Assembly (NCBI GenBank): GCA_029242745.1
Contig: JAQWTI010000038.1
Coordinates: forward strand, 1-38,982
DNA: 38,982 bases
Source of the DNA: Acidimicrobiales bacterium
Lineage (GTDB): Bacteria; Actinomycetota; Acidimicrobiia; Acidimicrobiales; MedAcidi-G1
Reading direction: 5' to 3'
Below, piece by piece: positions 4,191 to 37,735 of this stretch. Position numbers and translations under genes: made by a program. The notes beneath the pieces are model-generated. The model was not told where the DNA came from, ran no database searches, and worked only from the letters and a program-made list of their open reading frames with translations. Positions within the stretch are counted from its first letter, which is position 1; the number at the start of each line of letters is the position of its first letter.

Positions 4191-6356
4191 CTATAGACGG
4201 GACCCAATGGCGTGACCGGTACGGATGGCACCTTCGATGTAGCCCACTTCACCAGCATCGCCGACCACGTGGACTTCGACGCCTTCGGCTAAGACGTCCT
4301 TGATGGCTTCGGCTAGCGACGAATCGGGCTCTACTCCACTAGCGAGTAGCACAGTGTCTGCGCCGAACTGCAGTTCTATTTTCTCGGCGCTATCAGAGGA
4401 GCTTATTTCAACCGCTACCTCAGTGGGCGTGATCGCGACTAGGCGCGTGCTGGTCCGGAAATCCACACCCTTTTCTCGGGCCTGGTGCAGGGCCCGCCAA
4501 CGGCGCGGATGGGCCATTTCGACGGCCAGATCGGTGCCTTCTTCTAGGACGGTGACTATCCGGCCTCGCTCCGCCAGGAACTCAGCCAACTCGCATCCCA
4601 CGAGACCACCACCCACCACAACGATACGACGCCCTATTGGCATCCACCGCCGAGACAAGTTCCGAACTCGGTTGAGGTCAGTAGTGATACCGAGCAAGCG
4701 GCCTACGGCTAGGGCGGCCCGGGTGACTGGACTAGGGCGGTGGGCGCTCAGATCGCCGTCGCCGGTGAGAAGTTTGCGGAGGTCATCTCCGGAGAGGACG
4801 TGCGGCAGGTCTGCGCCAGGCACGTTAGGTCGCCCTCGGACTGCCCCCGTGGCCACCACGACAGCATCAGGAAATAGGGCGGCGACTGTGGCGGGGGTAG
4901 CCACTGTGCTGGTCCGGATTTCCACCTCTACTTCTTCGATAGCGGCTTTTAGATAGCGCACTAGGTCACCGTTTAGTGGTGTAGTGAGGGAAGAGAACCG
5001 GGCTGTGCCTCCCAGGTGGTCGGCTCGTTCCAACAAAGTCACCCGGTGACCTCGACTAGCTGACACCCGGGCTGCCTCCATGCCCCCAGGTCCACCACCT
5101 ACTACAACGACATGGCCAGGATTGGCTGCTGGTGATGGTTCGGGTTCATTCTGGTGGCCTAGACGGGCGTTTACCGTACAGATGGGGGCTGCTGACCAGA
5201 AGTTCTGGGCTACGCAAACAAAACAGTTGATGCACGGGCGGACTAGATCGGGCCGTCCTTCAGCAAGTCGGTTAGGGAGGTCGGGATCGGCTAGGAGTTG
5301 GCGTCCCATGGCTATGAGATCGGCACCTCCGTCACGGATGATTCGTTCACCATCGTCGGGGCGTATCCGGCCTACAGCGATGACTGGGACGCTGACAGCT
5401 GCTTTGACTGAGCGGGCGAGATCTTCGTACTGACAGTCCAGCCACGGCAGCGGCCCTTCAGTGAAACCTGGCCCACCGGTGATCGACGAGTATGCCGTCA
5501 CGTGAATGGCGTCCGCGCCGCCGGCTACTGCCAGGGTCGCATATTGGGTAGCCAGGTCGGGGGTGATGCCGCCATCGAGAGCCGTATCGCGCCCGTTGAG
5601 CCGCACCAGGATGGCGAATTTTGTGCCACATCGGGCCCGAATGGCTTGTACTACGTCGACCAACAAGCGGGCGCGGTTTTCTACGGTCCCCCCGTACTGA
5701 TCTGTACGCCGGTTCCACGCAGGGGAGAGAAAGGTATCTATGAGATAACCGTGGCCGGCATGAATTTCAATGCCGTCTAGCCCCGCATCCCGAACTCGGG
5801 CTCCTGCATCAGCGAAGCGGTCGACCACCCAAGCCAACTCGGCCACTGTGGCTTCGTTGTAAGACGGCATCTTGCCCCCAGTTAGGGTGGCCATGGACGT
5901 GAGTTCTTCCATAGTGGTGTCCCGTAAAATGGCCATGGGGTCGGTGTCTGGTACGGGGAGACTGGGCACAAGAACTGTTCGGTCTTCGGCTGTGTCCACG
6001 CTGGAGATCCGCCCGTGGTGGTTTGCTTGGACGACAATCTTTGCTCCGTGGGCGTGGACAGCCTCACCCAGGCGTTGTAGTCCTCTGATTACGCCGTCGT
6101 GTGACAGAGCCGGCTGGTGGCGGGCCGTGGCCCCGTGGGGGAACGCCACCGCTGAAGTCTCGAGGATTAGCAGGCCGGCACCGCCCCGGGCTCGCTCGGC
6201 GTAGTGGGTGATGAGAGTGTCTGTGATCAGGCCGTCGTCACAGGCGTTCTGGTCCATGGCCGGCAGGACAATTCGGTTACGAAGGTCCAGTGGTCCCACA
6301 CGGATAGGCGAAAGTAGGAGTGGGTGGAAACCTGAGATTTTGGAATCTGATGACAC
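4191..6356 (-). CDS. Old-yellow-enzyme-type NADH:flavin oxidoreductase with C-terminal FAD/NAD domain (FadH/TMADH/DgcA-like)
   Basis: A 721-residue flavoprotein with an FMN-binding TIM barrel (about 10-350), a [4Fe-4S] motif CINCFVC...C (C-x2-C-x2-C-x11-C, about 370-390) and a C-terminal dinucleotide-binding region with VVVGGGPGGMEAARV and VVVGGGLVGCELAEF. IHAGHGYL is the substrate-site motif of the OYE family. This architecture is shared by 2,4-dienoyl-CoA reductase, trimethylamine dehydrogenase and the dimethylglycine demethylase subunit DgcA. It is the last C1-operon gene, after metF, so demethylation of an N-methyl amine such as dimethylglycine or sarcosine is an attractive inference. An enoate reductase role cannot be excluded. 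The start is GTG, with GGCAGGAT upstream. The gap to metF is 69 bases. Confidence 0.85.
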   Translation of the reverse strand: MSSDSKISGFHPLLLSPIRVGPLDLRNRIVLPAMDQNACDDGLITDTLITHYAERARGGAGLLILETSAVAFPHGATARHQPALSHDGVIRGLQRLGEAVHAHGAKIVVQANHHGRISSVDTAEDRTVLVPSLPVPDTDPMAILRDTTMEELTSMATLTGGKMPSYNEATVAELAWVVDRFADAGARVRDAGLDGIEIHAGHGYLIDTFLSPAWNRRTDQYGGTVENRARLLVDVVQAIRARCGTKFAILVRLNGRDTALDGGITPDLATQYATLAVAGGADAIHVTAYSSITGGPGFTEGPLPWLDCQYEDLARSVKAAVSVPVIAVGRIRPDDGERIIRDGGADLIAMGRQLLADPDLPNRLAEGRPDLVRPCINCFVCVAQNFWSAAPICTVNARLGHQNEPEPSPAANPGHVVVVGGGPGGMEAARVSASRGHRVTLLERADHLGGTARFSSLTTPLNGDLVRYLKAAIEEVEVEIRTSTVATPATVAALFPDAVVVATGAVRGRPNVPGADLPHVLSGDDLRKLLTGDGDLSAHRPSPVTRAALAVGRLLGITTDLNRVRNLSRRWMPIGRRIVVVGGGLVGCELAEFLAERGRIVTVLEEGTDLAVEMAHPRRWRALHQAREKGVDFRTSTRLVAITPTEVAVEISSSDSAEKIELQFGADTVLLASGVEPDSSLAEAIKDVLAEGVEVHVVGDAGEVGYIEGAIRTGHAIGSRL

Positions 6357-6425
6357 GTCGAGAATCCTGCCCGATCGACGGCTGTTGGGCCAACCGCTCA
6401 GCTTTGTGCTGTTCAGGCCAGATTC

Positions 6426-7301
6426 TCAGTTGGCTAGTTTCTTCAGGGATTTACGACGCCATTCCTCGGTGGTGTCCACTGAGTTAAAAGTAAAGCAGTG
6501 GATTCCAGTGATACCCAGATCGTTGGCCCGACTCGACAGTGGAGCAATCAGCTTGTTTGGGTTGTAGCCACCAGGTGAGAGCAGTCGGATAACTGAGGTT
6601 TTATTTTTTTTAAGAAACCGGGACGAGTGGCGAATACCCAAACGAATCGAGATGGTTAACAATTTGGTGCGGTCTACAGCCCCGGGTACACCTAGGTGGC
6701 AGGGTAGGTCCACACCACCTGCCCGGAGTTCTGAGAGCCACTCGGCGATGACTTGGGCATCAAAGCACATCTGAGTGGCCATGTAGCCCTCTAGCCCAGC
6801 ATTACGGATCAACTCTTGTTTTTCGATAAGAGCATCGGCGAGCTGCTGGTCGGGGATATTGGCGTGACCGTCGGGGTAGGACCCAACACCCACAACGTCG
6901 ATCTCGGGGCGTCGGTCGAGGAATGAACCCAGAAAGCCAGCTGCATCCGTAAAGGGTCCACGGGGCTCAGCATCACCACCAATGCAGAAGACCTTGCGGA
7001 TACCGATCGTGTTTACCCGCCGAACAATCTTCGTGACGTGCTCTTCGCTCTCAACCATGCGCGCAGCGAAGTGTGGGATCACGGCGAATCCCTTGTCGGC
7101 GTATTCGGCGCAGAGGTCGATGGTGTCGTCAATCGTCTTGGCTGGTGAGCAGGTGACCGAGACGGTGGCACCATCAGGAAGGTGCGCGCTCTGGTCGGCC
7201 AAGTTCTTCAGCGGTATGAGCTCGTAAGTCATGCCTTCGAGCAGGCGCTGCTGGATGGGCTTATCTGCTTTGGATCGTTCGATCTTTGCTCGGGTGGCCA
7301 C
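6426..7301 (-). CDS. metF: Methylenetetrahydrofolate reductase-like protein (divergent MetF)
   Basis: A 291-residue flavoprotein TIM barrel that interconverts 5-methyl-THF and 5,10-methylene-THF. Family signatures are CIGGDAEP (Asp110, equivalent to E. coli MetF Asp120), VGVGSYPDGH, and TQMCFD (Gln177, equivalent to Gln183). The N-terminal catalytic Glu28 of E. coli MetF (in SFEFFPP) appears to be replaced by Thr50 in SVTCSP. The context, behind the methyl-THF:corrinoid methyltransferase and Fhs, suggests it runs in the oxidative direction, from methyl-THF to methylene-THF. The start is GTG with a strong GGAGGGAGG ribosome binding site. It lies 78 bases after fhs in the same direction. Confidence 0.85.
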   Translation of the reverse strand: MATRAKIERSKADKPIQQRLLEGMTYELIPLKNLADQSAHLPDGATVSVTCSPAKTIDDTIDLCAEYADKGFAVIPHFAARMVESEEHVTKIVRRVNTIGIRKVFCIGGDAEPRGPFTDAAGFLGSFLDRRPEIDVVGVGSYPDGHANIPDQQLADALIEKQELIRNAGLEGYMATQMCFDAQVIAEWLSELRAGGVDLPCHLGVPGAVDRTKLLTISIRLGIRHSSRFLKKNKTSVIRLLSPGGYNPNKLIAPLSSRANDLGITGIHCFTFNSVDTTEEWRRKSLKKLAN

Positions 7302-7379
7302 GTTGCCTCCCTCCTCTGTAATCCTGGGAACGGTGGTGCTCGCTCACTGGTGGTGCGGAATTCGTGCTAGTCCGCATAA

Positions 7380-9077
7380 TTAACTCAGGCCGACAATCTC
7401 GCCGTCCTGGTCGATGTCAATTCCGATGGCACCTGGTTGGGCGCCAAGTCCGGGCATCGTACGCATATCGCCGCAGATCGGGTACACGAATCCTGCACCC
7501 ACCGACGCCCGGACCTCACGAACGGGAAGCGTCCAACCGGTCGGTGCGCCCTTAAGTGAGGCATTGGAACTAATCGATAGATGGGTTTTGGCTATGCATA
7601 CGGGCAGGTTTCCGAAGCCGTTGGCTTCATAAGAGTCGATTTGCTTCTCGGCCTGTGGTGAGAACTCGACACCATCGGCGCCGTACACCTTTTCAGCAAC
7701 TGTGCGAATCTTGTCACGAAGTGACATCTCGTCTGGGTAGAGCACCTGAAACTTACTTGGTTCTTCTGCTGCTTCAGCAACGGCCTCAGCGAGTTCAGCG
7801 GCACCCGAACCGCCGTCCGTAAAGTGGGTGGTCACGGCTGATCGGGCATTGAATTCATCTGCAATCTCTTTGATTGCTGCGATGTCGCCCTCGTGATCGC
7901 CCGGGAAAACATTAATAGCCACTACTGGGGAAACTCCATGGATCTTCATGTTTTCCAGTTGTTTACGAAGGTTGTCGCCACCCTGATGAACCTCATCAGG
8001 GTTCTCTGCTAGGAGTCCCTCGGGTAGTGGCCGACCGGCAACAATCTTGTGGTTGCCGGAGTGGGCCTTGAGTCCTCGCACAGTCGCCACTAGTACAGCG
8101 GCGTCAGGAGCGATACCCGAGTAACGACATTTGATATTAAAGAAGCGTTCGGCTCCCATGTCTGCGCCAAAGCCAGCTTCGGTCAGGAGGTAGTCGCCAG
8201 TGTGGATGCCGATCTGGTCTGCAATGATCGAAGAGTTGCCAGTAGCGATGTTGCCGAATGGTCCACAGTGCACCAGAGCTGGAGTTCCCTCGAGAGTCTG
8301 CATGAGGTTCGGCTTGATGGCTTCCTTAAGGATCACGGTCATGGAGCCGGCCACACCAAGGTCCTCTGCGGTTACTGGGGTACCAGCTTTGTCGTAGCCC
8401 ACGACAATGCGTCCCATCCGGACCCTCAGGTCGGCTAGCGAGGTGCACAGGGCCAGCGCGGCCATGACCTCGGATGCCGCTGTGATGTCAAATCCAGTCT
8501 CGCGGGGCACGCCATCAAGGCGGCCACCTAGGCCGACCACGATGTTTCGGAGGGCCCGGTCGTTAATGTCCATAACTCGCCGCCAGGTGATGTTGTGGAG
8601 GTCCAGACCCAACTTGTTGCCATGGAAGAGGTGAGCGTCAAGCATGGCCGAGCACATGTTGTGGGCTGCAGTGACGGCGTGCATATCTCCGGTTAGGTGG
8701 AGGTTGAACAGCTCCATGGGGACGACCTGGCTGTAGCCGCCACCCGCTGCACCGCCCTTGATCCCAAAGGTTGGGCCCATCGATGGCTGCCGGATGGCGA
8801 TGGTCGCCTTTCGGCCAATGTGGCTGAATCCCTGTCCGAGGCCGACGGTGGTAGTGGTCTTACCCTCGCCAAGTGGCGTAGGGGTGATGGCTGAGACGAC
8901 CACGTATCGAGCGTCTGGTCGATCGGCCATCCTCTTGATGGCGTCGAGTTTGATCTTGGCTGATCCCTCACCGTACTGCTCGAGGCAATCGGCTGGAATC
9001 CCAGCCTCGTCGGCGACCTCTATCAGGGGGCGCAACTTTGCACCGCGGGCGATCTCGAGGTCAGAGGGAAACGACAT
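7380..9077 (-). CDS. fhs: Formate-tetrahydrofolate ligase
   Basis: A 565-residue protein, close to the normal length for Fhs. The nucleotide-binding signature TPTPLGEGKTTTTVGLGQ is at about 65-82, and long conserved stretches follow (QPSMGPTFGIKGGAAGGGYS; LLTEAGFGADMGAE; CVLVATVRGLKAH-type region). The enzyme couples formate + ATP + THF to 10-formyl-THF. In catabolic demethylation operons it can run backwards, releasing formate and conserving ATP. That direction fits here because an NAD-type formate dehydrogenase is encoded in the same window. The start is ATG. The 146-base gap upstream, the largest in the operon, could hold an internal promoter (a TACAAT-like -10 is present on the minus strand), but this is weak. 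Confidence 0.97.
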   Translation of the reverse strand: MSFPSDLEIARGAKLRPLIEVADEAGIPADCLEQYGEGSAKIKLDAIKRMADRPDARYVVVSAITPTPLGEGKTTTTVGLGQGFSHIGRKATIAIRQPSMGPTFGIKGGAAGGGYSQVVPMELFNLHLTGDMHAVTAAHNMCSAMLDAHLFHGNKLGLDLHNITWRRVMDINDRALRNIVVGLGGRLDGVPRETGFDITAASEVMAALALCTSLADLRVRMGRIVVGYDKAGTPVTAEDLGVAGSMTVILKEAIKPNLMQTLEGTPALVHCGPFGNIATGNSSIIADQIGIHTGDYLLTEAGFGADMGAERFFNIKCRYSGIAPDAAVLVATVRGLKAHSGNHKIVAGRPLPEGLLAENPDEVHQGGDNLRKQLENMKIHGVSPVVAINVFPGDHEGDIAAIKEIADEFNARSAVTTHFTDGGSGAAELAEAVAEAAEEPSKFQVLYPDEMSLRDKIRTVAEKVYGADGVEFSPQAEKQIDSYEANGFGNLPVCIAKTHLSISSNASLKGAPTGWTLPVREVRASVGAGFVYPICGDMRTMPGLGAQPGAIGIDIDQDGEIVGLS

Positions 9078-9223: not shown

Positions 9224-10786
9224 TCAGCCGAACTCGTCAGGTATTACTTCTTTGCGGCGAGCGATGAAATCGAGCATGGCTTCATCGGCGGCCTCGTCCA
9301 GTGGGGGTGCCTCGTAACTCTCCAGCATCTCTTTCCAGATGCCGTTAGCTCGCTGGGCGGCGTCAAGACTGCCTTCCTCGGCCCACTTTTCAAATGAGTC
9401 ATTGTTGGCTACGGCGGATCGGGCAAATGCAGTCTCAAAGTTGGCCAGTGTGTGACTGGTTCCCAAATGGTGCTGGCCGGGACCAACTTCTCGAATGGCG
9501 TCCATGGCTAGGCCGTTTTCTGACATATCCACCCCATTGACAAAGGTGGCAGCCAGATTGCACTGGTCGGCATCGATCACGAACTTTTCGTAGCCCATAG
9601 TTAGGCCACCTTCTAGCCAACCAGCTGAGTGCAGCATGAAGTTCACACCCCCCATGAGAGCTGGGATAAACGTCGCCATGGATTCGCTCGCTGCCTGGGC
9701 ATCAGGCACCTTGGATGCACAGAGGTTGCCACCGGAGCGGAACGGCACACCGAGTCGCCGGGCTAAGGCAGCCACCGTGTAGAGCACCAGTGCCGGCTCC
9801 GGGGTGCCAAAAGTTGGAGCACCGGTCTGCATTGACATCGACATGGCAAATGAACCAAACACCATTGGGGCTCCTGGATTAACCAGTTGTACGAAGGTCA
9901 TGCCAGCCAGAGCTTCGGCGAGTGTCTGTATGGCTACACCGGCCACTGTGACTGGCGCCATGGCTCCAGCCAAGATGAAGGGGCTAAGCATGGTGGCTTG
10001 GTTGGAGCGGGCATAGGTCTCGGCTGCCCCAAGCATGGTGGCGTCCCACGCCATGGGTGATGAAGCGTTGATGAGACTGGTCATCACCGTTTTCTGTTGG
10101 ACGACATCTGTCCCGAAAACAAAACCGGCTAGGTCAATGGAGTCCTGGGCCCGTTCGGCGGCCGTCACTGACCCCATGAAGGGTTTATCGCTGTACTTGA
10201 GGTGTGAGTAAACCATGTCTAGGTGTCGTTTAGAGACCGAGATATCCACTGGCTCTACAATTGTTCCTCCCGAATGGTGCAAGCCGGGATGCAAGTAGGC
10301 CATCTTCACAAAGTTTCGGAAGTCTTCTATGGTGGCGTAGCGGCGCCCCTGATCGAGGTCGTACACAAAGGGTGAGCCGTAGGCTGGAACCAGCACCGTG
10401 GCGTCGCCACCTATCTGCACGTTACGGGTTGGGTTGCGGCTGTGCTGGGTGTACGTACTGGGCGCGGAAGCCTGAATTATTTGGCGGCACATGCCTCTTG
10501 GAAACCGGACCCGTTCGCCTTCCACATCCGCACCAGCGTCGGCCATTAAGACAAGTGCTGAAGGATAGCCACAGAAGTCAATTCCAATTTCCTCGAGAAT
10601 TGTGTCAGCCGAGTGCTCAATGATCTCGAGGCCTTCTGTGGACATGGCATCAAAAGGAGCCATAGTACGCGTCAAGTAAGCCCGTGTTTGTGTAGTGACT
10701 TCGGATCGAGCGGCTTGACGGGCTGCTCGGCCACCACTGCGTCGGCCACCTCGGCTGTCGGACGCTGAAGAGTTCTCGTCGTTCAT
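9224..10786 (-). CDS. MttB-superfamily corrinoid methyltransferase, non-pyrrolysine (MtgB-like; probable glycine betaine methyltransferase)
   Basis: A 520-residue member of the trimethylamine methyltransferase (MttB) family, with an uninterrupted frame. There is no in-frame TAG, so it is a non-pyrrolysine member like MtgB, MtpB, MtcB and MtyB. The segment MLHSAGWLEGGLTMGYEKF aligns with the conserved part of the family near the pyrrolysine region. It transfers a methyl group from a quaternary amine to Co(I) of the corrinoid protein. The substrate is inferred to be glycine betaine, because the carnitine genes yield betaine and a dimethylglycine-dehydrogenase-like gene is present. Carnitine, gamma-butyrobetaine or proline betaine remain possible. 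The start overlaps the RACo stop (TAATG), with GAGGGAGA upstream, indicating translational coupling. Confidence 0.9.
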   Translation of the reverse strand: MNDENSSASDSRGGRRSGGRAARQAARSEVTTQTRAYLTRTMAPFDAMSTEGLEIIEHSADTILEEIGIDFCGYPSALVLMADAGADVEGERVRFPRGMCRQIIQASAPSTYTQHSRNPTRNVQIGGDATVLVPAYGSPFVYDLDQGRRYATIEDFRNFVKMAYLHPGLHHSGGTIVEPVDISVSKRHLDMVYSHLKYSDKPFMGSVTAAERAQDSIDLAGFVFGTDVVQQKTVMTSLINASSPMAWDATMLGAAETYARSNQATMLSPFILAGAMAPVTVAGVAIQTLAEALAGMTFVQLVNPGAPMVFGSFAMSMSMQTGAPTFGTPEPALVLYTVAALARRLGVPFRSGGNLCASKVPDAQAASESMATFIPALMGGVNFMLHSAGWLEGGLTMGYEKFVIDADQCNLAATFVNGVDMSENGLAMDAIREVGPGQHHLGTSHTLANFETAFARSAVANNDSFEKWAEEGSLDAAQRANGIWKEMLESYEAPPLDEAADEAMLDFIARRKEVIPDEFG

Positions 10787-15635: not shown

Positions 15636-15725
15636 AGATTCGCTCCATTGCGGATCGGGGGACGCATGCATGTCGATTGGTCAGTTTTGTTTGTTCTCAG
15701 GGGTGGAAAGGAACATCGTCACGTA

Positions 15726-23805: not shown

Positions 23806-23818
23806 AGAGCCACCATGA

Positions 23819-28915: not shown

Positions 28916-30076
28916 ATGGACTTCGCCCTAACCGATGAACAAGAGATGGTGGTTGACACCGTCCGGAACTTCACTGAACGTGAGTTGGTGCCGTATGAAG
29001 AGGAGGTTGAGCGCCTTGGAGATGTGCCGGTTGAGTTGGTGGCCCAGATACGCGATCGCTCTATAGCTGCTGGAATTTACGCGGCCAATATGCCTGCCGA
29101 ACTGGGCGGTGGAGGACTTGACAACCTGACTATGGCGATGGTTGATCGGGCTTTTGGCTGGACCCAGTACGCACTGCACTACATAGTGGCCCGCCCTTCC
29201 AACATCCTTCAAGCCTGCGTCGGTAATCAGGTCGAGGAGTACCTCCTCCCCACGATCCTTGGTGAGCGGGTCGATTGCTTAGCCATGAGTGAACCTGATG
29301 CTGGTTCCGATGTTCGAGGAATGAAGTGCAGGGCGGTTCAAGATGGGGCTGATTACCTAATCAACGGCACCAAACACTTCATTAGCCATGCAGACCTAGC
29401 CGACTACACGATCCTCTTTGCTGCCACAGGTGAGGAGGAAACACCCCGTGGCCCCAAGAAGTTGATCACCTCGTTTCTTGTCGACCATGACACGCCAGGA
29501 CTAGAGATCGCCCAGGGATACCAATCGGTGTCTAATCGCGGCTACCACAATTGCATCCTTAACTTCAATGATTGCCGCGTGCCGGCCTCGGCGGTGCTTG
29601 GTGAGGAGCACCGGGGCTTCGATGTCGCCAATGAGTGGTTGGGTGCCACCCGCCTACAGGTTGCTGCAGTGTGCTTGGGTCGAGCCGACCGAGCTCTGGC
29701 CGTAGCGCTGGACTGGGCGGCGTCCCGTGAGCAGTTCGGTCAGAAGATCGGCAAGTTTCAGGGAGTCTCGTTCAAGTTGGCTGACATGCGCACGACGATG
29801 ATCGAGGCTGAACTTATGACCTACCGGGCTGCATGGCTTATGGACCGGGGTGAGATGGCTGACGGCGATGCGGCGATGGCAAAGATCTCATCAACGGAGA
29901 TGCTCCAGTTCGTATCGGACGAGGCCATCCAGATTCTCGGAGGGATGGGCCTCATGGACGAATTGCCGTTGGAACGGATTTGGCGAGACGCTCGAGTAGA
30001 CCGAATCTGGGACGGAACGAGCGAGATTCAACGTCATATCGTGAGTCGCGAGATGCTGCGTCCTTTGGGTGCCTGA
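28916..30076 (+). CDS. Acyl-CoA dehydrogenase (candidate gamma-butyrobetainyl-CoA dehydrogenase)
   Basis: A 386-residue acyl-CoA dehydrogenase of normal length. Motifs are MSEPDAGSDVRGMKCRAV (FAD and substrate loop), RLQVAAVCLGRADRALAVALDWAASREQFG and QILGGMGLMDELPLERIWRDARVDRIWDGTSEIQRHI. The position of the MCAD catalytic base (Glu in IYEGT) appears as Asp366 in IWDGT; Glu elsewhere (IVD-type) or Asp itself could serve. Inside an operon with carnitine genes, a CoA ligase and a CaiD-like hydratase, the likely role is oxidation of gamma-butyrobetainyl-CoA to crotonobetainyl-CoA, with ETF as acceptor. The ATG is preceded by GGAG. Confidence 0.88.
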   Translation: MDFALTDEQEMVVDTVRNFTERELVPYEEEVERLGDVPVELVAQIRDRSIAAGIYAANMPAELGGGGLDNLTMAMVDRAFGWTQYALHYIVARPSNILQACVGNQVEEYLLPTILGERVDCLAMSEPDAGSDVRGMKCRAVQDGADYLINGTKHFISHADLADYTILFAATGEEETPRGPKKLITSFLVDHDTPGLEIAQGYQSVSNRGYHNCILNFNDCRVPASAVLGEEHRGFDVANEWLGATRLQVAAVCLGRADRALAVALDWAASREQFGQKIGKFQGVSFKLADMRTTMIEAELMTYRAAWLMDRGEMADGDAAMAKISSTEMLQFVSDEAIQILGGMGLMDELPLERIWRDARVDRIWDGTSEIQRHIVSREMLRPLGA

Positions 30077-30102
30077 GCTGGTCTGCGCGGGGAAATGAAC
30101 TG

Positions 30103-32187
30103 ATGGGGAGGTTGGGGCGTTTACTGGCACCACAGTCGGTGGCCATGGTCGGTGGGCGTCCCGCTGAGTTGGCTATTGAGCAGTGCCGACGTCTGGGTTT
30201 CGAAGGCGAATTGTGGGCCGTGCACCCGACTCGGACGGATCTGGCAGGGGTGGCCTGCGTGCCAACTGTAAATGATCTGCCCGGTGTCCCAGACGCAGCT
30301 CTGGTGGCCGTGAATCGTCATGCCGCGATCGACGTAGTTGGTCGACTGGCGTCTGTTGGTGCTGGTGCCGCAGTCTGTTACGCATCGGGATTTGCTGAGG
30401 CCGGACCTGAAGGAGAAGTTCTCCAGAATGCCCTAACGGCCGCAGCCGCTGGCATGCCACTGGTGGGCCCCAACTGTTACGGGACGGTGTCGGCTACGGC
30501 AGGTGTCGCTTTATGGCCCGACCAGCAAGGTCTCAACCGGGTAAATCGGGGTGTAGCGCTGGTTACTCAGAGCGGGAACATTGGCTTGGATTTGAGTATG
30601 CAGACCCGGCCTATGCCAATCGCCCACCTACTCACACTGGGTAATCAGGCTGACGTAGGTATCGAGGAGTGCCTTGAGACACTGGTGGCCGACCCGGCGG
30701 TTACAGCGGTTGGCCTCCATGTGGAGGCCCTCCACGATGTTCCCCGGTTTGTAAGTGCCTGTCAACGTGCCTCAGTTGATGCTGTACCGGTGGTGGTACT
30801 CAAGACGGGGTCGTCGAATCGAGGTGCAGAGATTGCCGCGTCGCATACCTCATCGATAGTGGGTATCGACGAGGCATACGAGGCTTTGTTTCAGCAACTA
30901 GGGGTGCGGAGAGTCCGGTCTATTCCCGAACTGCTAGACACTCTTCATGTGTTGGACCGCCTTGGAGGCCTTAATGGGAATCGGATCGTCAGCCTCAGTT
31001 GCTCAGGAGGCGAAGCGTCAATTGTGGCTGACCGGTGCGACGGTCTAGATCTAGTATTGCCGGCGTTTGAGCCCATGCAGGTGAAACAGATTCGAAGCGC
31101 TCTGGGTGATGGTGAAAAAGTTGAAATGGTTTCGGTGTCCAATCCATTCGATTATCAAACCTTTATTTGGGGTGACAGAGAGCGTCTGACGGCCACCTTT
31201 TCTGCGGCTATTGAGCCCATTGGACATTTGGGTGAGGGTCCAGATGCCGCCATGTTGGTTGTGGATTTTCCGTCCAGCAATTTTGATGACACCAGTTGGT
31301 GGCCTGCGCTGGAGGCCTTCGGTGCTGCATCAGTGATTACTGGTACGCCTGGGGTCGTGGCGGCCTCAATGGCTGAGAATCTGCCGACAGAAGTGGAGTC
31401 CGCAGCAGTCGACCTCGGCTTGGTTCCGGTGCGGGGTATTGACGAGGCGCTCTTGGGCTTGGAGGCTGCCGCGTGGTGGGGTCGTCGGATTGATGTGCTG
31501 GGGCCAACCCCGGTTGGACCAACAAGTTCGGCCTGTCGAATTCTGAGTGAAAGTGAAGCGAAGGCCGTGTTGGCCGACCACGGGGTGCCCATTCCATACG
31601 GTGAAGTAGTGCCGGTCGACTGTGCTGGGGAAGTGACTGAACGGATAAGTGGACCGGTGGTAGTCAAAGCTGTTGGTGTGGCCCACAAGACCGAGGTCGG
31701 TGGGGTAGCCGTCGGATTGATTGGCGCTGAGGATGTCACTCGGGCTGCCCGACAAATGTTTGCGACTACGGGCAGTAAACAGGTGCTGGTCGAGGCGCAG
31801 GTGGTTGATCCGGAGGCTGGCAGGCTGGTCGAGTTGCTAGTCGCTGTGCGTCGGGCCGCCCCTGTCGGTTGGCTTCTCACCATTGGGGCTGGAGGCGCTC
31901 TAGTTGAGTTGTTGCGCGACACCCAGAATCTGTTGCTCCCTGTGACCGACGATGCCATACGGGTTGCGCTCCAGGCATTGGCCGTTGGCCAGTTGCTGGA
32001 CGGCCATCGCGGAAGTCCTGGTGTGGACCTTGATGCCTTAGTGGTCGTCATCCAGCAAATTGCGGAGCTGGCCACGGTGGTAGCGGGCGTGGTGGAACTG
32101 GAGGTCAACCCGGTGCTCGTCGGACCGGGGGGTGCCACAGTGGTCGACGCGCTTATAGAGATTGAGATTTACGGAGAGGAACAGTGA
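30103..32187 (+). CDS. NDP-forming acyl-CoA ligase (acetate-CoA ligase family), candidate gamma-butyrobetaine/carnitine-CoA ligase
   Basis: About 694 residues. It has a CoA-binding Rossmann domain (about 8-135: SVAMVGGRP, VGPNCYGTVS), a succinyl-CoA-ligase-like domain (about 145-450: VALVTQSGNIGLDLS, KTGSSNRGAEIAASHTSS with the candidate phospho-His248) and an ATP-grasp domain at the C-terminus (GPVVVKAVGVAHKTEVGGVAVGL, VVELEVNPVLV). It activates an acid to its CoA thioester with ATP to ADP + Pi. The substrate is inferred from neighbours: a CaiD-like hydratase overlaps by 4 bases and an acyl-CoA dehydrogenase precedes it. GGGGA upstream supports the ATG at 30103; extending to 29980 would run into the dehydrogenase gene. 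Confidence 0.87.
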   Translation: MGRLGRLLAPQSVAMVGGRPAELAIEQCRRLGFEGELWAVHPTRTDLAGVACVPTVNDLPGVPDAALVAVNRHAAIDVVGRLASVGAGAAVCYASGFAEAGPEGEVLQNALTAAAAGMPLVGPNCYGTVSATAGVALWPDQQGLNRVNRGVALVTQSGNIGLDLSMQTRPMPIAHLLTLGNQADVGIEECLETLVADPAVTAVGLHVEALHDVPRFVSACQRASVDAVPVVVLKTGSSNRGAEIAASHTSSIVGIDEAYEALFQQLGVRRVRSIPELLDTLHVLDRLGGLNGNRIVSLSCSGGEASIVADRCDGLDLVLPAFEPMQVKQIRSALGDGEKVEMVSVSNPFDYQTFIWGDRERLTATFSAAIEPIGHLGEGPDAAMLVVDFPSSNFDDTSWWPALEAFGAASVITGTPGVVAASMAENLPTEVESAAVDLGLVPVRGIDEALLGLEAAAWWGRRIDVLGPTPVGPTSSACRILSESEAKAVLADHGVPIPYGEVVPVDCAGEVTERISGPVVVKAVGVAHKTEVGGVAVGLIGAEDVTRAARQMFATTGSKQVLVEAQVVDPEAGRLVELLVAVRRAAPVGWLLTIGAGGALVELLRDTQNLLLPVTDDAIRVALQALAVGQLLDGHRGSPGVDLDALVVVIQQIAELATVVAGVVELEVNPVLVGPGGATVVDALIEIEIYGEEQ

Positions 32188-32987
32188 GCGAAGAACCAAG
32201 GAGTGAAGGGCCCACAGTTCGGACAACGGTGGATGGTCCGATCCTAGAGGTGGTGTTAGACCGTCCGAAGGCCAACGCCATTGACGCAGCGACCAGTCAG
32301 GAACTCAGTCGGGTGTTCGCTGGTTTTCGGGATGATCCGGCTCTACGGGTGGCGGTGTTCACAGGGGCTGGCGAACGATTTTTTTCGGCTGGCTGGGACC
32401 TTGCTGCAGCCGTTGGGGGAGAGGCGTTCGAGGCTGACTATGGCGAGGGTGGGTTTGGTGGGTTCTGCGAATTGCCGGGACGGTATAAGCCAGTTGTTTG
32501 TGCGGTGAACGGCATGGCGGTGGGTGGGGGATTCGAGATCGCCATGGCTGCTGAGTTCGTAGTGGCTGCGGAACACGCCACTTTCTTTCTACCGGAGACC
32601 GCTTTGGGAATTATTCCAGACGCTGGTGCTATCCGGCTGCCCCGGATCCTGCCGGCTGTAGTAGCCAACGAAGTGCTTTATGGTGGACGTCGGTTGGACG
32701 CCGATGAGGCCGAACGGTGGGGTTTAGTGAACCAGGTAGTGGCGTCTCATGACTTGCTAACTGTGGCTCATGATCTTGCGAGACGGATTGCTACCGCAGC
32801 CCCATTGGCGGTGGAAGCGGTGATGGCTATCGGCCAAGTCAGTTGCCATCGGTCGGTTGGAGATGCATTTGCCTACCTGCGGTCCGGTGAATTGGAAGCT
32901 TACGAACGGATGCTGGCTTCTGCTGATGCACTTGAAGGACCACTAGCCTTCACCGAAAATCGCAATCCCCACTGGGAGGGATGTTAG
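32184..32987 (+). CDS. caiD: CaiD-like crotonobetainyl-CoA hydratase (enoyl-CoA hydratase family)
   Basis: A 267-residue crotonase. The core from YKPVVCAVNGMAVGGGFEIA through FFLPETALGIIPDAGA to RLPRILPAVVANEV closely parallels E. coli CaiD. Both CaiD catalytic Glu positions are present (Glu118 in GGGFE, Glu138 in LPE), as is a CaiD-like C-terminus (ENRNPHWEG). It hydrates crotonobetainyl-CoA to L-carnitinyl-CoA. It overlaps the CoA-ligase stop (GTGA) and is the last gene before the formate dehydrogenase locus, 128 bases further on. No caiB or caiC is seen, so entry and exit of CoA must use the NDP-forming ligase and a thioesterase. Confidence 0.85.
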   Translation: MSEEPRSEGPTVRTTVDGPILEVVLDRPKANAIDAATSQELSRVFAGFRDDPALRVAVFTGAGERFFSAGWDLAAAVGGEAFEADYGEGGFGGFCELPGRYKPVVCAVNGMAVGGGFEIAMAAEFVVAAEHATFFLPETALGIIPDAGAIRLPRILPAVVANEVLYGGRRLDADEAERWGLVNQVVASHDLLTVAHDLARRIATAAPLAVEAVMAIGQVSCHRSVGDAFAYLRSGELEAYERMLASADALEGPLAFTENRNPHWEGC

Positions 32988-33115: not shown

Positions 33116-35041
33116 ATGAGTAAGCGCTTGACTACCCCGATGGTTCGCGATGGTGGTGCTCTTCGTGAGTCCACCTGGGCGGAAGCCTTGCAGCGGGCTG
33201 CTGTTGGGTTCAGCGATGCGGTCGATACTCACGGCCCGACGTCGTTCGGAATGTTCAGTTGTTCTAAGACCACCAATGAGGTGAACTACGCCGCCCAGCG
33301 ATTCGCTCGCCGGGTTATCGGCTCAAATAATATTGATAGTTGTAATCGAACTTGACACGCTCCCAGCGTCGTCGGTCTGGCGACGGTCTTTGGAGCGGGT
33401 GGTGGCACTTCTTCCTATGAAGAGATTGAGGAGGCGGACGTCATCATCATGTGGGGGTCTAATGCGCGTAATGCGCATCCAATCTTCTTTCATCACGCCC
33501 TCCGTGGTGTCAACAATGGTGCCCGTATGTGGACTGTGGACCCTCGGCGTACCGGGACGGCCAAGTTTGCTGACCACTGGCTAGGACTCAATGTCGGCTC
33601 CGATATAGCGCTCGCTAATGGCGTAGCACGTGAAATTGTTGCCTCTGGCCTGCAGAATGAGGAGTTCATTGAGAACTCCACCACCGGTTACGAGGATTTC
33701 GTGGCTTTTGTCGAACCGTGGACACTCGAGCGCACATCAGAGGTAACCGGTGTGCCCGTTGGAGCCATCCGTGAGTTAGCTCATGCCTACGCGACGGCTG
33801 GTAAAGCCCAGATCTGCTGGACATTGGGGATAACCGAGCACCACACCGGGGTTGACAATGTTCAGTCGTTATGCAACTTGTCCTTGCTCACCGGTCACGT
33901 TGGACGCTGGGGCTCGGGCCTGGTGCCGCTTCGTGGACAAAACAATGTGCAGGGTGGGGGCGATATGGGTGCACTCCCTAACAAGTTGACTGGGTTTCAA
34001 GATGTCGAGGACAACGAAGTTCGGGCGAAATTCGAGGCTGCTTGGGACTGCACCATTCCACCGATCAACGGCTGGAACCTCACCCAAATGTTTGAGGCCA
34101 TGGGAAGGGGCGAGATTAGGGCTGTTTATTGCATCGGCGAGAACCCGGTGGACTCTGAGGCCGATGCCACCCATGCTCGGGCCATGCTCGAGGGTCTCGA
34201 CACACTGGTTGTCCAAGACGTATTTATGACCCGGACTGCCGAGCTGGCCGACGTAGTGTTCCCTGCTGCGCTTGGGTGGGCTGAGTCTGATGGCACAGCC
34301 ACCAACAGTGAGCGTCGGGTTCAGCGGGTACGCGCCGCTGTCCCACCACCTGGGCAAGCCCGCCAAGAGGTTGACATCATTAACGACTTAGCGGCAGCAA
34401 TGGGAGATGATGACTGGGGTCAGCCCACACCAGAGGAACTCTGGGACGAGCTACGGACGGTGTCACCAATGCACGGCGGGATGTCTTGGGCCCGACTTGA
34501 GGCTGAGGGGGGTATTCAGTGGCCGTGTCCGACTGAAGACCATCCAGGTAGCCAGTTCTTGCATGGCCGACTTTGGGAGCGACCTGTTCAAGGCCGGCCG
34601 GCTCCGTTTTCATGTGTGGAAGATCGTCCACCGCTAGACGTACTAACGGACGAGTTTCCGTTGCGTCTCACTACGGTGCGAGCACTGGACTCCTACAACA
34701 CCGGTGTTCAGACCGAACATTATTCATCGCCCATCCGGACGGGTGAAGCGTTGTCAATCTCGACAGTCGACGCCGTGGCTCTTGGTGTGGTGGATGGTGA
34801 GCGGGTCAACGTTTCGTCACGACGTGGATCGATCACCATGACTGTGGAGGTCGAGGAGCATCTGGCCGTTGGCCTGTGTCACACAACGTTCCACTTTCCT
34901 GAGACCACCGACATCAACCAGATAACTAGTGATGCCGTAGACCCCAAGTCTGGCACTGCGGAGTTTAAGGCGGCAGCCATCCGGATCGATCGACTGCCGG
35001 TTGCTGCAGGGCAACCTGTGTCTGTGAGCCACAGTGCCTGA
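33116..35041 (+). CDS. fdhA: Selenocysteine-containing formate dehydrogenase catalytic subunit, C-terminal part (Mo/W-bis-MGD domains), UGA-encoded Sec80
   Basis: About 641 residues when the in-frame TGA at 33353-33355 is read as selenocysteine. The context SCNRT-Sec-HAPSVVGL matches the active site of FDH-H (ARV-Sec-HGPSVAGL), including the His after Sec. Downstream are VRGQNNVQGGGDMGALPN, VYCIGENPVDSEAD and VQDVFMTRTAELADVVFPA, then a MopB C-terminal domain from about residue 510 (FPLRLTTVRALDSYN). It oxidises formate to CO2 at a bis-MGD metal site. It lacks the N-terminal [4Fe-4S] domain of the family, which is at the end of the gene at 36875. AGGGA 5 bases upstream sets the ATG at 33116. 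Annotators would split or truncate it at the TGA. Confidence 0.9.
33358..33397 (+). promoter_or_regulatory. Bacterial SECIS element of the FDH gene
   Basis: Two bases after the UGA codon a lower stem pairs CGCTCC (33358-33363) with GGAGCG (33392-33397). The upper stem pairs CGTCGTC (33367-33373) with GGCGACG (33379-33385) around the loop GGTCT (33374-33378). The GGUCU apical loop and its 18-base distance from the UGA are the same as in E. coli fdhF. SelB would bind here to insert selenocysteine. Confidence 0.88.
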
Positions 35042-36875
35042 CCTGTACTTCGGAGCGGCTGATGAGGCCACGGCGGGAGAGCGGACTGCGGTAGCGGAAG
35101 CTATTTCTGGTTTTGGCCCGGTAGTTATCCGAGAATCGGAACGCCTAGTTCATGCTGGTCGGAGCCGAACTAGAGAACGGCGTCACCTTTTGCTGCCGGT
35201 CCTGCATTCGCTGCAGCGGGCTTCGGGTTGGATAAGTCCGGGTGGGCTTGACCATGCATGTGCGGAACTTGAGGTGCCGCCTGCAGAGGCCTACGGGGTG
35301 GCGACCTTTTATCACCTGTTCACCCACGAACCACCGACCAGTGCTGACACAGTTCATGTGTGCGACGACGTGGCGTGTCGTTTGTTTGGCTCAGGCAAAT
35401 TGATTAAGGACCTGCGTGATAATGGTCACCACGTGAAGGCCAGCCCGTGTTTGGGTCAATGTGAGCGGGGCCCAGCAGTCTTAGTTCAGCGCACCGCCGG
35501 GTCTGATCTGACAGTGACCGCAGTTGATGGCGGATCCTCTACTACTACTCTCGCTGCAAGCGAAGTTGCGGTTGCTATTGACGGTGCCAACTCGACGCCA
35601 TCGGTCACTCTCTCCCAAGCTGGATCCGACCAGCTGCGGTTGTTGGCCCGGGTCGGTGTGGTTGATCCATCCAGTCTTGTGGACTACCGAGCCCACGGTG
35701 GCTATGAGGCGCTAGCGGCCTCTCTAACTATGGGACCTGATCGGGTTATCGATGAGATCACCGCAGCGGGCCTGTCGGGGCGCGGTGGTGCGGCATTTCC
35801 CACCGGTGTGAAATGGCGTGGAGTAGCCGATCAAGAGGGTCGTCCCCACCATCTGGTGTGCAACGCTGACGAGTCGGAACCTGGGACCTTTAAGGACAGG
35901 GTTGTAATGGAAGGTGATCCGTTCTCAGTTATTGAGGCCATGACAGTGGCCGGCATTGCCGTTGGAGCCGAGCAGGGGTGGCTCTACATTCGCGGTGAGT
36001 ACCCAGTCGCTGCTGCCCGGCTGACGCATGCCATCAGCGAGGCTTACGCTGCGGGCCTCTTGGGCGCTGATGTGGCCAGTTCGGGTAAACGTTTTGAAAT
36101 CCATCTACGTAGTGGGGCTGGGGCCTATATATGCGGTGAGGAAACGTCACTGTTTAACTCCATTGAAGGGTTTCGCGGAGAGCCCCGGAATAAACCACCA
36201 TTCCCCACTACTCATGGCTTGTTTGGTGAACCGACGGCCATCAACAACGTGGAAACCCTTATCAATGTCCTGCCTATAGTCGTCATGGGCGGATCGGCCT
36301 ATGCCGCCGCAGGAACAGACCGTTCACCGGGAACCAAGTTGTTCTGCCTCAGTGGTCGGGTGGTCCAGCCCGGCACCTACGAGGTGGAGTTTGGTGCCAC
36401 GCTGAGGGAAATAATTGATCTCGCTGGCGGGGTGCCTGACGGCCGGGAGTTGCGCGCTGTGATGCTGGGTGGCGCGGCCGGCAGTTTTGTTGGTCCAGAA
36501 TCATTGGACCTACCGCTGACTCTCGAGGACACCCGAGCTGCCGGGGTTTCGCTGGGATCGGGCGTGATCATGGTGTTCGATCAGGATGACGACATGGTTG
36601 ACTCGGTTCGCCGAATAGCCGAGTTCTTCCGAGATGAATCTTGCGGCCAGTGCGTGCCATGTCGGGTAGGTACGGTCCGCCAGGAGGAAGTTCTGGTGCG
36701 TCTCAGTAGTGGGTCGACTATCGATGAGGAGCAAGATCTGCTGCAGGACCTAGCGACCGTCATGAAGGACGCCTCCATCTGTGGCTTAGGGCAGACTGCG
36801 TCCGGGGCCGTGCTGAGCGCTATCGAACTAGGCTTGTTGGCCGGCTCAAAGTCAGGCGATGGAGGGAGCAACTAA
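35034..36875 (+). CDS. fdhB: NAD-linked formate dehydrogenase subunit, NuoE-NuoF fusion
   Basis: 613 residues. The N-terminal NuoE-like thioredoxin-fold domain (about 40-160) binds [2Fe-2S] through Cys110-x4-Cys115 and Cys139-x3-Cys143. The NuoF-like part (about 200-600) shows GRGGAAFPTGVKW (FMN/NADH site), CNADESEPGTFKDR and GAGAYICGEETSLFNSIEG. A C-terminal [4Fe-4S] motif, ESCGQCVPCRVGT...ICGLG, follows. It passes electrons from formate through FMN to NAD+, as in Fds/Fdh-type soluble enzymes. The start is GTG, overlapping the stop of the catalytic gene by 8 bases. The stop overlaps the next start (TAATG). Confidence 0.93.
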   Translation: MPDLYFGAADEATAGERTAVAEAISGFGPVVIRESERLVHAGRSRTRERRHLLLPVLHSLQRASGWISPGGLDHACAELEVPPAEAYGVATFYHLFTHEPPTSADTVHVCDDVACRLFGSGKLIKDLRDNGHHVKASPCLGQCERGPAVLVQRTAGSDLTVTAVDGGSSTTTLAASEVAVAIDGANSTPSVTLSQAGSDQLRLLARVGVVDPSSLVDYRAHGGYEALAASLTMGPDRVIDEITAAGLSGRGGAAFPTGVKWRGVADQEGRPHHLVCNADESEPGTFKDRVVMEGDPFSVIEAMTVAGIAVGAEQGWLYIRGEYPVAAARLTHAISEAYAAGLLGADVASSGKRFEIHLRSGAGAYICGEETSLFNSIEGFRGEPRNKPPFPTTHGLFGEPTAINNVETLINVLPIVVMGGSAYAAAGTDRSPGTKLFCLSGRVVQPGTYEVEFGATLREIIDLAGGVPDGRELRAVMLGGAAGSFVGPESLDLPLTLEDTRAAGVSLGSGVIMVFDQDDDMVDSVRRIAEFFRDESCGQCVPCRVGTVRQEEVLVRLSSGSTIDEEQDLLQDLATVMKDASICGLGQTASGAVLSAIELGLLAGSKSGDGGSN

Positions 36876-37735
36876 TGAACGAGACTCCGGTCAGTGTGTC
36901 GACCATGGTCGAGTTCACGCTTGATGATGAGGTCGTGAAGGTTCCCGACGGGTCGACAATTCTTGATGCCTGTCGGCGTGAAGGCATTGAAACTCCTACG
37001 CTTTGTTGGGCTGAGAACCTCACCCCGGTCAACGTTTGTCGTGTTTGCGTGGTGGAGGTCGAGGGCTCCCGTGTGTTAGTGCCGTCCTGTTCACGCGCTG
37101 TTGAGGAGGGCATGGTCGTTGCGACTGATAGCGAACGGGTTCGAACTAGTCGTCGCATGGTCTACGAGTTGTTGGCTTCATCCGTAGAGATGGATCGAGC
37201 TGATCCCGAGGTGCACGCATGGATGGAGCACTATGGCGCCCGGCCCGAGCGGATGGGTGACCGATCTGAGATCGCTACTGTGGCCCAGCCGGTAAAGGTT
37301 CAGGATGATCTATATGTACGGGACTATGAGCGTTGCATCCTCTGCTACAAGTGCGTGGAGGCGTGCGGCGATGATGCCCAGCACACCTACGCTATTGCTA
37401 CGGCTGGGCGCGGTTTCGGCGCCCACATTTCGACGGAGCATGACGTGTCCCTGCCCGACTCGGCTTGTGTGTACTGCGGCAACTGCATTGGGGTGTGTCC
37501 GACTGGAGCATTAGCCTTCAAGACCGAACATGACATGCGCGAGGCGGGAACTTGGGATGAGTCGAGCCAGTCCGTTACGACAACGGTTTGCCCGTTTTGC
37601 GGTGTTGGCTGCAACTTGGAGTTGCATACTCAGGACGAACGGATCGTGAAGGTCACTTCACCTGCCGACCACTCAGTGACCCACGGACACCTGTGCATAA
37701 AAGGTCGCTTCGGTTGGCAGCACGCTCACGCATAA
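36875..37735 (+). CDS. Formate dehydrogenase iron-sulfur subunit carrying the N-terminal [4Fe-4S] domain of the split catalytic subunit
   Basis: 286 residues with four cluster motifs. A plant-type [2Fe-2S] (Cys44-x10-Cys55-x2-Cys58-x13-Cys72) is followed by two ferredoxin [4Fe-4S] motifs (Cys154/157/160/164 and Cys198/201/204/208). The C-terminus is CPFCGVGC...LCIKGRFGW (Cys239/242/246/274 with Lys276), which is the molybdopterin-oxidoreductase Fe4S4 domain normally joined to the catalytic domain. It stops right where the family sequence would continue into RLTTPMVRDGG, the start of the gene at 33116. The His-ligated cluster motif (H-x3-C-x2-C-x5-C) usual between the first two parts in FdsA/NuoG is missing. 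Confidence 0.9.
   Translation: MNETPVSVSTMVEFTLDDEVVKVPDGSTILDACRREGIETPTLCWAENLTPVNVCRVCVVEVEGSRVLVPSCSRAVEEGMVVATDSERVRTSRRMVYELLASSVEMDRADPEVHAWMEHYGARPERMGDRSEIATVAQPVKVQDDLYVRDYERCILCYKCVEACGDDAQHTYAIATAGRGFGAHISTEHDVSLPDSACVYCGNCIGVCPTGALAFKTEHDMREAGTWDESSQSVTTTVCPFCGVGCNLELHTQDERIVKVTSPADHSVTHGHLCIKGRFGWQHAHA

Follow-up and report, generated by a model that had tools for sequence, protein, structure and literature searches.

A conserved locus of marine Acidimicrobiia predicted to oxidize carnitine, gamma-butyrobetaine and glycine betaine, with a split formate dehydrogenase

Aerobic, B12-dependent demethylation of glycine betaine that feeds tetrahydrofolate (THF)-linked C1 oxidation has been published for Ruegeria, where mutants of Ruegeria pomeroyi DSS-3 demonstrated that MtgC and MtgD are needed for growth on betaine in an aerobe (PMC12478193, 2025; this and the other papers cited are drawn on in part). 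We analyzed contig JAQWTI010000038.1 of an Acidimicrobiales bacterium (MedAcidi-G1; assembly GCA_029242745.1), a stretch of 38,982 nucleotides referred to below as the window. Positions 4191 to 37735 of the window hold two modules in one locus: a five-gene cassette leading from carnitine/gamma-butyrobetaine to betaine, and genes for corrinoid demethylation and C1 oxidation. The likeness to Ruegeria covers an MttB-family MtgB, MtgC, a pterin methyltransferase, RamA/RACo, DUF1638 and MetF2; in addition, the carnitine proteins CdhABC were induced in the same experiments, and most mtgBCD genomes were without a classical MetH (PMC12478193). In Ruegeria, however, the genes lie scattered and proteins of the serine cycle were induced (PMC12478193), whereas here, in a member of the Actinomycetota, one locus holds them together with Fhs and a predicted selenocysteine (Sec) formate dehydrogenase (FDH). 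Co-location of betaine genes with C1 genes is frequent in other marine bacteria, proteobacteria included, and 5% of ocean mtgC reads were assigned to Actinomycetota (PMC12478193).

Other described systems resemble parts of the locus. Plasmid p1 of Paracoccus methylovorus carries BKACE, carnitine 3-dehydrogenase, RACo, MtgA, MetF, DUF1638, MtgC and MttB within about 17 kb. Alongside these are genes for an ABC transporter and for a MetF C-terminal protein, and the stretch viewed shows neither an acyl-CoA module nor Fhs or FDH. Rhizobium sp. N324 has BKACE, carnitine 3-dehydrogenase, acyl-CoA dehydrogenase (ACAD), a ligase of the acetate-CoA ligase family and carnitinyl-CoA dehydratase in the identical order, but there a transporter gene follows the cassette and no mtg genes lie in the stretch viewed. 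Actinomycetospora chiangmaiensis has three Sec-FDHs and removes formate in a selenium-dependent manner (PMC7176365). Its FDH3 is a cytoplasmic three-subunit Sec-FDH of 640/614/316 amino acids (aa), compared by size alone with the subunits of about 641/613/286 aa here, and the parts of that paper covered state no link to betaine and no split catalytic chain (PMC7176365). An original prediction for this locus had presented corrinoid-dependent betaine demethylation in a probably oxygen-exposed actinobacterium as a notable alternative to the Rieske type and the two modules as usually described apart; neither is novel as claimed, since the route was already published for aerobic Ruegeria (PMC12478193) and P. 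methylovorus has both modules in one locus.

Gene content and predicted pathway

The window is contig C36 of a 2.44-Mb draft genome that is 94.7% complete. Gene families were assigned by NCBIfam and Pfam profile scans of open reading frames (ORFs), with the longest-frame starts taken as gene starts except for the CoA ligase and the FDH catalytic subunit (FdhA), whose starts were picked by inspection; every gene class named in the original prediction was recovered where it had been placed. MtgC, DUF1638, MtgA, RACo, MttB, Fhs, MetF, a flavoprotein resembling Old Yellow Enzyme and a P450 follow one another leftward from 15671 down to 2862; the intergenic distances are -1 to 146 bases, except for 400 bases between DUF1638 and MtgA. 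The middle of the locus is occupied by an IclR regulator, an SDR protein, and the dimethylglycine (DMG) dehydrogenase with electron transfer flavoprotein (ETF). A rightward run, with several overlaps of 1 to 8 bases, holds BKACE, a carnitine 3-dehydrogenase-thioesterase fusion (CDH-TE), ACAD, CoA ligase, CaiD and three FDH genes. From this gene content and its conservation, we consider it likely that marine Acidimicrobiia use this conserved locus to break down trimethylated amino-acid osmolytes. The genes of the predicted pathway upstream of FDH are the following.

26484..27377, + strand: BKACE, predicted to convert 3-dehydrocarnitine and acetyl-CoA to betainyl-CoA and acetoacetate (PF05853, 314.5 bits)
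27374..28864, + strand: carnitine 3-dehydrogenase fused to a betainyl-CoA thioesterase, 4HBT_2 (PRK07531, 525 bits, cut-off 592; PF13279)
28916..30076, + strand: acyl-CoA dehydrogenase, predicted gamma-butyrobetainyl-CoA dehydrogenase (NCBIfam acyl-CoA dehydrogenase families, those listed all below cut-off)
30103..32187, + strand: ADP-forming acyl-CoA ligase, predicted gamma-butyrobetaine:CoA ligase (PF13549/PF13607/PF13380); the ORF opens at 29980, and 30103 is an in-frame ATG near the start of most relatives' alignments
32184..32987, + strand: CaiD-like crotonobetainyl-CoA hydratase (NF002936, 333 bits, cut-off 500)
9224..10786, - strand: MttB-superfamily methyltransferase, predicted glycine betaine:corrinoid methyltransferase, MtgB-like and without pyrrolysine (PF06253, 717 bits)
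14928..15671, - strand: MtgC-like corrinoid protein (NF047996, 201 bits, below the cut-off of 370; 70-75% identity to the Paracoccus and Sinorhizobium meliloti cognates)
14203..14919, - strand: DUF1638 protein, predicted part of cobalamin reactivation (PF07796, 113 bits)
12906..13802, - strand: methyl-corrinoid:THF methyltransferase MtgA, called MtgD in Ruegeria (PRK07535, 354 bits, cut-off 259; 64-65% identity to Paracoccus/S. meliloti)
10786..12861, - strand: RACo/RamA-type corrinoid reductive activase (PF14574, PF17651, PF17650)
6426..7301, - strand: MetF-like methylene-THF reductase, predicted to oxidize methyl-THF (PF02219, weak at 29.8 bits; best Protein Data Bank (PDB) match 7xg9, MTHFR, 123 bits)
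7380..9077, - strand: formate-THF ligase Fhs, predicted to run in the ATP-forming direction (PRK13505, 798 bits, cut-off 652)
17643..20240, + strand: DAO-GcvT dimethylglycine dehydrogenase/oxidase (PF01266 + PF01571; dimethylglycine oxidase 1pj5, 451 bits; DMGDH, 267 bits)
20249..21999, + strand: ETF, beta subunit at 20249-21028 and alpha subunit at 21025-21999 (PF01012 for beta; NCBIfam ETF families for both, below cut-off)

In the pathway that we propose, gamma-butyrobetaine would be activated to its CoA ester and dehydrogenated, with ETF taking up the electrons; hydration and release would then yield carnitine. This would be oxidized to 3-dehydrocarnitine, from which BKACE and acetyl-CoA would form betainyl-CoA and acetoacetate, and the fused thioesterase would free glycine betaine. 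MttB, acting as MtgB, would transfer one betaine methyl group to the corrinoid protein MtgC, with RACo and DUF1638 keeping MtgC active and MtgA handing the methyl group to THF. Methyl-THF would then be oxidized by MetF, FolD and Fhs to formate with formation of ATP, and the predicted selenocysteine FDH would oxidize formate to CO2 with formation of NADH. The next methyl group would reach methylene-THF through DMG dehydrogenase and ETF, and the same MtgC/MtgA pair, together with an MtgE-type protein, would probably also make methionine. This pathway is well supported by comparative genomics, from which we infer the substrates, flux direction, electron acceptor and energy yield.

The gene sets resemble those of the known routes. 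MtgB, MtgC, MtgD/A, RACo/RamA, DUF1638 and MetF are encoded together, as in the aerobic MtgBCD(E) systems, and the DUF1638 gene adjoins the corrinoid protein gene in Paracoccus and S. meliloti too. BKACE, carnitine 3-dehydrogenase and betainyl-CoA thioesterase are adjacent, as in the CdhABC/BKACE route, and a CoA ligase, an acyl-CoA dehydrogenase and a hydratase adjoin these carnitine genes, the arrangement looked for in CoA-dependent oxidation of gamma-butyrobetaine. FolD, whose absence would have spoken against the original prediction, is encoded elsewhere in the genome on contig C18 (179 bits), so that the gene set for THF-linked C1 oxidation is complete with the weakly matching MetF, Fhs and FDH of the window. 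Two COX1 (terminal oxidase) matches in the genome fit an oxygen respirer.

Conservation and likely substrates

Conserved synteny in relatives, proposed as a check in the original prediction, was observed at two levels. The MttB matches with at least 73% identity in named genomes were of the Acidimicrobiia type (Acidimicrobiales, 'Microthrix', MedAcidi-G1 and MedAcidi-G2B among them), and 24 of the 27 loci of this type hold MtgC, DUF1638, MtgA, RACo, MttB and Fhs together with IclR; the remaining three are short contigs of <9.1 kb. DMGDH was present in 23 of these 24 loci, as was MetF. Among 19 genomes of the family, every one has a BKACE orthologue (>=76% identity), and nine carry MttB, BKACE and FDH on one contig, spaced 14.7 to 17.2 kb between MttB and BKACE and 6.8 to 12.9 kb between BKACE and FDH. 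BKACE and FDH share a contig in 15 of the 17 family genomes having both (G015 and G016 gave no strong match to the N-terminal FDH gene). For these counts, window-type MttB was defined as copies above about 710 bits, and a second such copy in each of G007 and G014, on contigs other than that of BKACE, was left out. Because 24/27 loci keep the gene set and 9/19 genomes keep MttB, BKACE and FDH on one contig, the grouping of these genes is more than chance. The family is also rich in this protein type, with 3 to 7 MTTB matches in each of the 19 genomes (fragments counted) versus matches in 1 of 12 genomes outside it.

Two sets of observations point to betaine as the predicted substrate of MttB. 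The first is that its closest plasmid relatives sit in betaine contexts: the best, from Azoarcus, has as neighbours betA, betB, a gene for choline transport, FolD and ETF:quinone oxidoreductase (ETF:QO), the second-best, from P. methylovorus, lies beside BKACE, carnitine 3-dehydrogenase and a complete mtg set, and the third, from S. meliloti, has an mtg set, bmt and a gene for glycine betaine transport nearby. The other is similarity to characterized structures. The window MttB matched 2qne, MtgB of Desulfitobacterium hafniense (DhMtgB), and 9yce, whose entry name is glycine betaine methyltransferase, with 397 bits in the same alignment, and it was the nearest to known MtgB among three copies of its own genome searched against the PDB (397 versus 317 and 204 bits). 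DhMtgB likewise belongs to the MttB superfamily and has no pyrrolysine, but it comes from an anaerobe, and the protein of 4yyc, which we take to be from S. meliloti, is much closer to the window MttB (669 bits). Docking predicted Y94, R309, H345 and F353 of DhMtgB as betaine contacts (PMC6855144); by hand mapping, the first three are kept in the window MttB, and it is the only one of the four MttB copies in its genome to keep three of the four. A weak Rfam PYLIS_3 match inside mttB (22.2 bits, gathering cut-off 38) raised the possibility of pyrrolysine, which was rejected since the frame runs without a stop; a Leu aligns to the pyrrolysine position (X of 7xcl). In a tree of 58 rows with midpoint root, 30 Acidimicrobiia orthologues formed one group (100/100) next to Azoarcus/Thauera rows (96/85), a position that suggests transfer between phyla. 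Three duplicates of the genome's own paralogues were dropped from the tree, and L037 and L052 were left out because they had no frame with a 400-residue match.

Additional MttB copies were found in the same genome; in the tree they have very long branches and their placement is unsure. One (L112; C18, 88-107 kb) has LysR, a protein of the DHDPS family, aldehyde dehydrogenase, DAO, SDRs and a CaiB-type gene around it, a neighbourhood that suggests a (hydroxy)proline betaine route, and two more (L111, C18 at 57 kb; L113, C35) each adjoin a DAO-GcvT protein. Several genus members have a further MttB type (about 680-707 bits, e.g., G012:C1:5850-7334), and no such score occurred in the present genome.

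Two lines of evidence likewise argue for gamma-butyrobetaine as the substrate of the CoA module. On a plasmid of Rhizobium sp. N324, the order BKACE, CDH-TE, ACAD, ligase and CaiD is the same, with identities to the window proteins of 56%, 45%, 61%, 43% and 49%, respectively, and two of the five genes are annotated as carnitine genes (carnitine 3-dehydrogenase and carnitinyl-CoA dehydratase). Additionally, two genomes of sister genera (G017 and G018) gave no match to the three CoA-module genes and have in the same slot a TauD protein with a GBBH-like N-terminal domain (L099:10402-11658, - strand; L100:6792-8063, + strand). This swap of a dioxygenase for the CoA module supports gamma-butyrobetaine as the module's predicted substrate. 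BKACE adjoins a carnitine 3-dehydrogenase-type gene in Rhizobium, Citricoccus and Caballeronia, with a separate thioesterase gene in the latter two. A dual carnitine dehydrogenase/thioesterase function has been described for S. meliloti (PMC12482172), and in an Arctic SAR11 island a gamma-butyrobetaine dioxygenase is paired with CDH and BKACE (PMC12421898).

A split formate dehydrogenase with a predicted selenocysteine

The FDH genes close the rightward run, with the following features.

33116..35041, + strand: FDH catalytic subunit without the N-terminal Fe4S domain (PF00384 + PF01568; TIGR01591 positions 49-127 and 162-672 on two open frames)
33350..33406, + strand: SECIS-like bacterial hairpin right after the Sec codon (Rfam SECIS_3, 22.1 bits, E 1.5, below the gathering cut-off of 63)
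35034..36875, + strand: FDH diaphorase subunit, a NuoE-NuoF fusion (PF01257, PF01512, PF10589)
36875..37735, + strand: N-terminal part of FDH as a gene of its own, with 2Fe-2S, 4Fe-4S ferredoxin and Molybdop_Fe4S4 domains (PF13510, PF22117, PF04879; TIGR01591 positions 1-49)

Judged from its NuoEF subunit, the enzyme is predicted to be of the NAD type. The catalytic frame contains an in-frame TGA at 33353-33355 (context SCNRTUHAPS), and all 18 loci from the family and order that cover this site share it. The hairpin was compared in 29 distinct Sec sequences: its six pairs and its loop GGUCU were intact in every one, and three showed a compensatory exchange of C-G to G-C at two synonymous codon positions. 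The hairpin was lost in the Cys-bearing split-type homologues L147, L148 and L151, from three large genomes. One apparent Cys row (L035) was dropped from these counts as a chance pattern match to a protein other than FDH, and L156 was left out because of Ns behind its TGA. SelA (402 bits, cut-off 268) and SelB (279 bits, cut-off 242) are encoded together on contig C46. Because of the in-frame TGA, the covarying SECIS-like element and SelA/SelB in the genome, the TGA at the metal-ligand position of the catalytic subunit is read as selenocysteine. A nonsense mutation breaking the enzyme was considered and rejected, given the TGA in 18/18 loci, the covarying hairpin and its loss in three Cys homologues. 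The reading of this FDH as a split selenoprotein corrects the original prediction, which did not mention it.

The missing N-terminal Fe4S domain is found at the end of the third gene, and the two pieces join cleanly (CIKGRFGW... and ...RLTTPMVR). The same order of core, diaphorase and N-terminal FeS part occurs in many Actinomycetota genomes (L115-L159), mostly with Sec. The third gene stops within 33 codons of the split point in 45/45 loci with a readable end and at least 60% identity (L055-L071 and L115-L142; L072-L074 were cut by contig ends and L084 gave no match), whereas L075-L083, about 30% identical, run on past this point and are NuoG-like. In L160-L162, with identities close to 40%, the two FDH parts are instead adjacent in the usual order. 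FdsA is a single chain with FeS domains plus the Mo-binding core. The present enzyme has the same overall domain set as FdsABG, but its FeS part and core are encoded by two separate genes, one on either side of FdhB. The idea of an entirely new type of enzyme was also considered and rejected, since the three subunit sizes match those of A. chiangmaiensis FDH3. In a draw of Actinomycetota, 69 of 396 genomes had an FDH match at 1e-50, and the loci examined were the best matches among them. All 175 matches in a plasmid collection were below 60% identity; the best 20 of the 175 were below 39%, with the annotated ones named fdhF or formate dehydrogenase. Outside the family, split-FDH loci had Fhs nearby in 4/20 cases (L102, L152, L155 and L158, from two families), with MtgC near L152 and MttB near L143.

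Neighbouring genes, rival explanations and biological meaning

The remaining genes of the locus and its borders were as follows.

15940..16716, + strand: regulator of the IclR family that separates the two halves (NF045644, 136.5 bits, below cut-off); each of the 24 complete Acidimicrobiia loci has one
22012..26274, - strand: PabBC (22012-23805), DUF1015 (23819-25066) and SerA-like (25063-26274) proteins between the modules, from family matches
4191-6356, - strand: Old Yellow Enzyme/dienoyl-CoA reductase-like flavoprotein, which was not matched in the interval from MetF to P450 of six relatives (L014, L016-L018, L029 and L031)
2862-4115, - strand, and 1456-2853, + strand: P450 and MFS exporter, respectively, which adjoin the locus in many relatives
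37745-38398, - strand: small SAM methyltransferase with weak similarity to the corrinoid-protein-associated CpaM, beside FDH in relatives of the genus

SerA and DUF1015 adjoin BKACE in those relatives whose stretch extends that far, and PabBC does so in some of them. PabBC, DUF1015 and the SerA-like protein possibly supply folate and serine for C1 flux, a role suggested by their families.

Methionine synthesis bears directly on the corrinoid half. In the 94.7% complete genome no PF01717 match to MetE was found and, judged from PF02574 alone, no full-length MetH. The single PF02574 match is a stand-alone protein of about 328 aa (353-aa frame) that scored 372 bits with PRK07534, over the cut-off of 338, and is encoded on another contig (C4). 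An MtgE-type homocysteine module in a genome where neither classical enzyme was found matches the MtgBCD(E) arrangement; the S. meliloti bhmt product has been treated as MtgE, which would form the homocysteine module of a methionine synthase split into separate proteins, with MtgC and MtgD as shared components (PMC12478193). Because neither MetE nor full-length MetH was found, MtgC and MtgA probably also make methionine with this remote protein of the betaine-homocysteine methyltransferase type. We give even chances to the wider proposition that a single locus encodes the sole methionine synthase core of the organism as well as its principal machinery for burning osmolytes. Methyl groups of carnitine and betaine would then enter MtgC and go to homocysteine as needed and otherwise to CO2 for ATP and NADH, in which case growth would depend jointly on vitamin B12 and selenium.

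Several observations weigh against the catabolic pathway proposed here. MtgC, CaiD, CDH-TE and ACAD score under their NCBIfam equivalog cut-offs, and MetF is very divergent. The window MttB has a Gly at the position of DhMtgB Phe353 (hand mapping), as does 4yyc, and MttB is the only window homologue in the Azoarcus stretch, which has no other mtg genes. Of the 15 genomes with both MttB and BKACE, 6 have them on different contigs, and four family genomes (G004, G005, G010 and G015) are without window-type MttB by the score cut. In G018 the modules are on separate contigs and no other locus gene lies in the 5 kb before BKACE, so that they are probably unlinked there; the carnitine dehydrogenase of both G017 and G018 was matched without the thioesterase part, which would free the betaine. 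Fifteen of the 20 split-FDH loci outside the family show no Fhs, MtgC or MttB nearby. No betaine or carnitine transporter was recognized among the window proteins scanned. Finally, the ETF:QO domain PF05187, which the original prediction had proposed to look for elsewhere in the genome, gave no match there, while the same search was positive in 3/14 control genomes. A candidate ETF oxidoreductase, possibly of the EtfD type, is encoded on C27; it is an FeS protein containing two CCG domains, and its assignment is a guess from its family. The originally predicted pathway held up with regard to FolD, the betaine contexts of the MttB relatives, the cassette order in Rhizobium and the GBBH-like swap, but not with regard to ETF:QO.

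The most serious of the rival explanations is that the corrinoid half works chiefly in making methionine and in C1 assimilation, with MtgC/MtgA and MtgE as methionine synthase, Fhs assimilating formate and betaine demethylation being minor. The genome fits this view in having no MetE match and a single PF02574 protein above the PRK07534 cut-off, as in the split methionine synthase model (PMC12478193), and PabBC and SerA lie within the locus. However, the MtgE-type gene is on a different contig, whereas FDH, DMGDH/ETF and the carnitine cassette are inside the locus, and the occurrence of FDH next to Fhs in two other families fits oxidation. Both roles can coexist; we consider methionine synthesis unlikely as the main purpose. 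A smaller probability still attaches to an MttB that acts on another quaternary amine, such as carnitine or gamma-butyrobetaine directly, with the BKACE cassette as a parallel route. MtcB/MtyB of Eubacterium limosum are reported to act directly on carnitine or gamma-butyrobetaine; the superfamily includes several substrate types, the genome has four copies, and Phe353 of DhMtgB is not kept. Set against this, the Azoarcus relative is accompanied by choline-to-betaine genes, with none annotated for carnitine in the stretch viewed, the carnitine cassette itself ends in betaine, and the DMG dehydrogenase/oxidase in the same locus would use betaine's product.

That the modules are adjacent yet unrelated, brought together by chance because the genome is small, is hardly credible. 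PabBC, DUF1015 and SerA do sit between them, the halves are on separate contigs in G018, and other Actinomycetota have FDH without the rest. However, order and spacing are kept across the family, and Paracoccus also pairs carnitine and MtgBCD genes, in a different gene order.

For a combined carnitine, betaine and C1 oxidation locus, novelty is moderate: the chemistry is known in Ruegeria, the cassette order in Rhizobium and the module pairing in Paracoccus. What is new is a complete, conserved all-in-one locus in Actinomycetota with Fhs and the predicted Sec-FDH, the gamma-butyrobetaine step swap and a probable shared role in methionine synthesis; a literature search covering neither preprints nor most subscription journals found no report of these steps together in this lineage. 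If the pathway is correct, the recently described aerobic B12 betaine route would reach a marine actinobacterial lineage known here mostly from metagenome-assembled genomes, where it would be joined to carnitine and gamma-butyrobetaine and, through Fhs and Sec-FDH encoded in the same locus, would end in energy conservation. The locus would then imply dependence on B12 and selenium, and its genes would supply markers for carnitine and betaine turnover. Additionally, the oxygen-dependent and CoA-dependent gamma-butyrobetaine steps at the same position in sister genera would be a natural experiment for assigning both.

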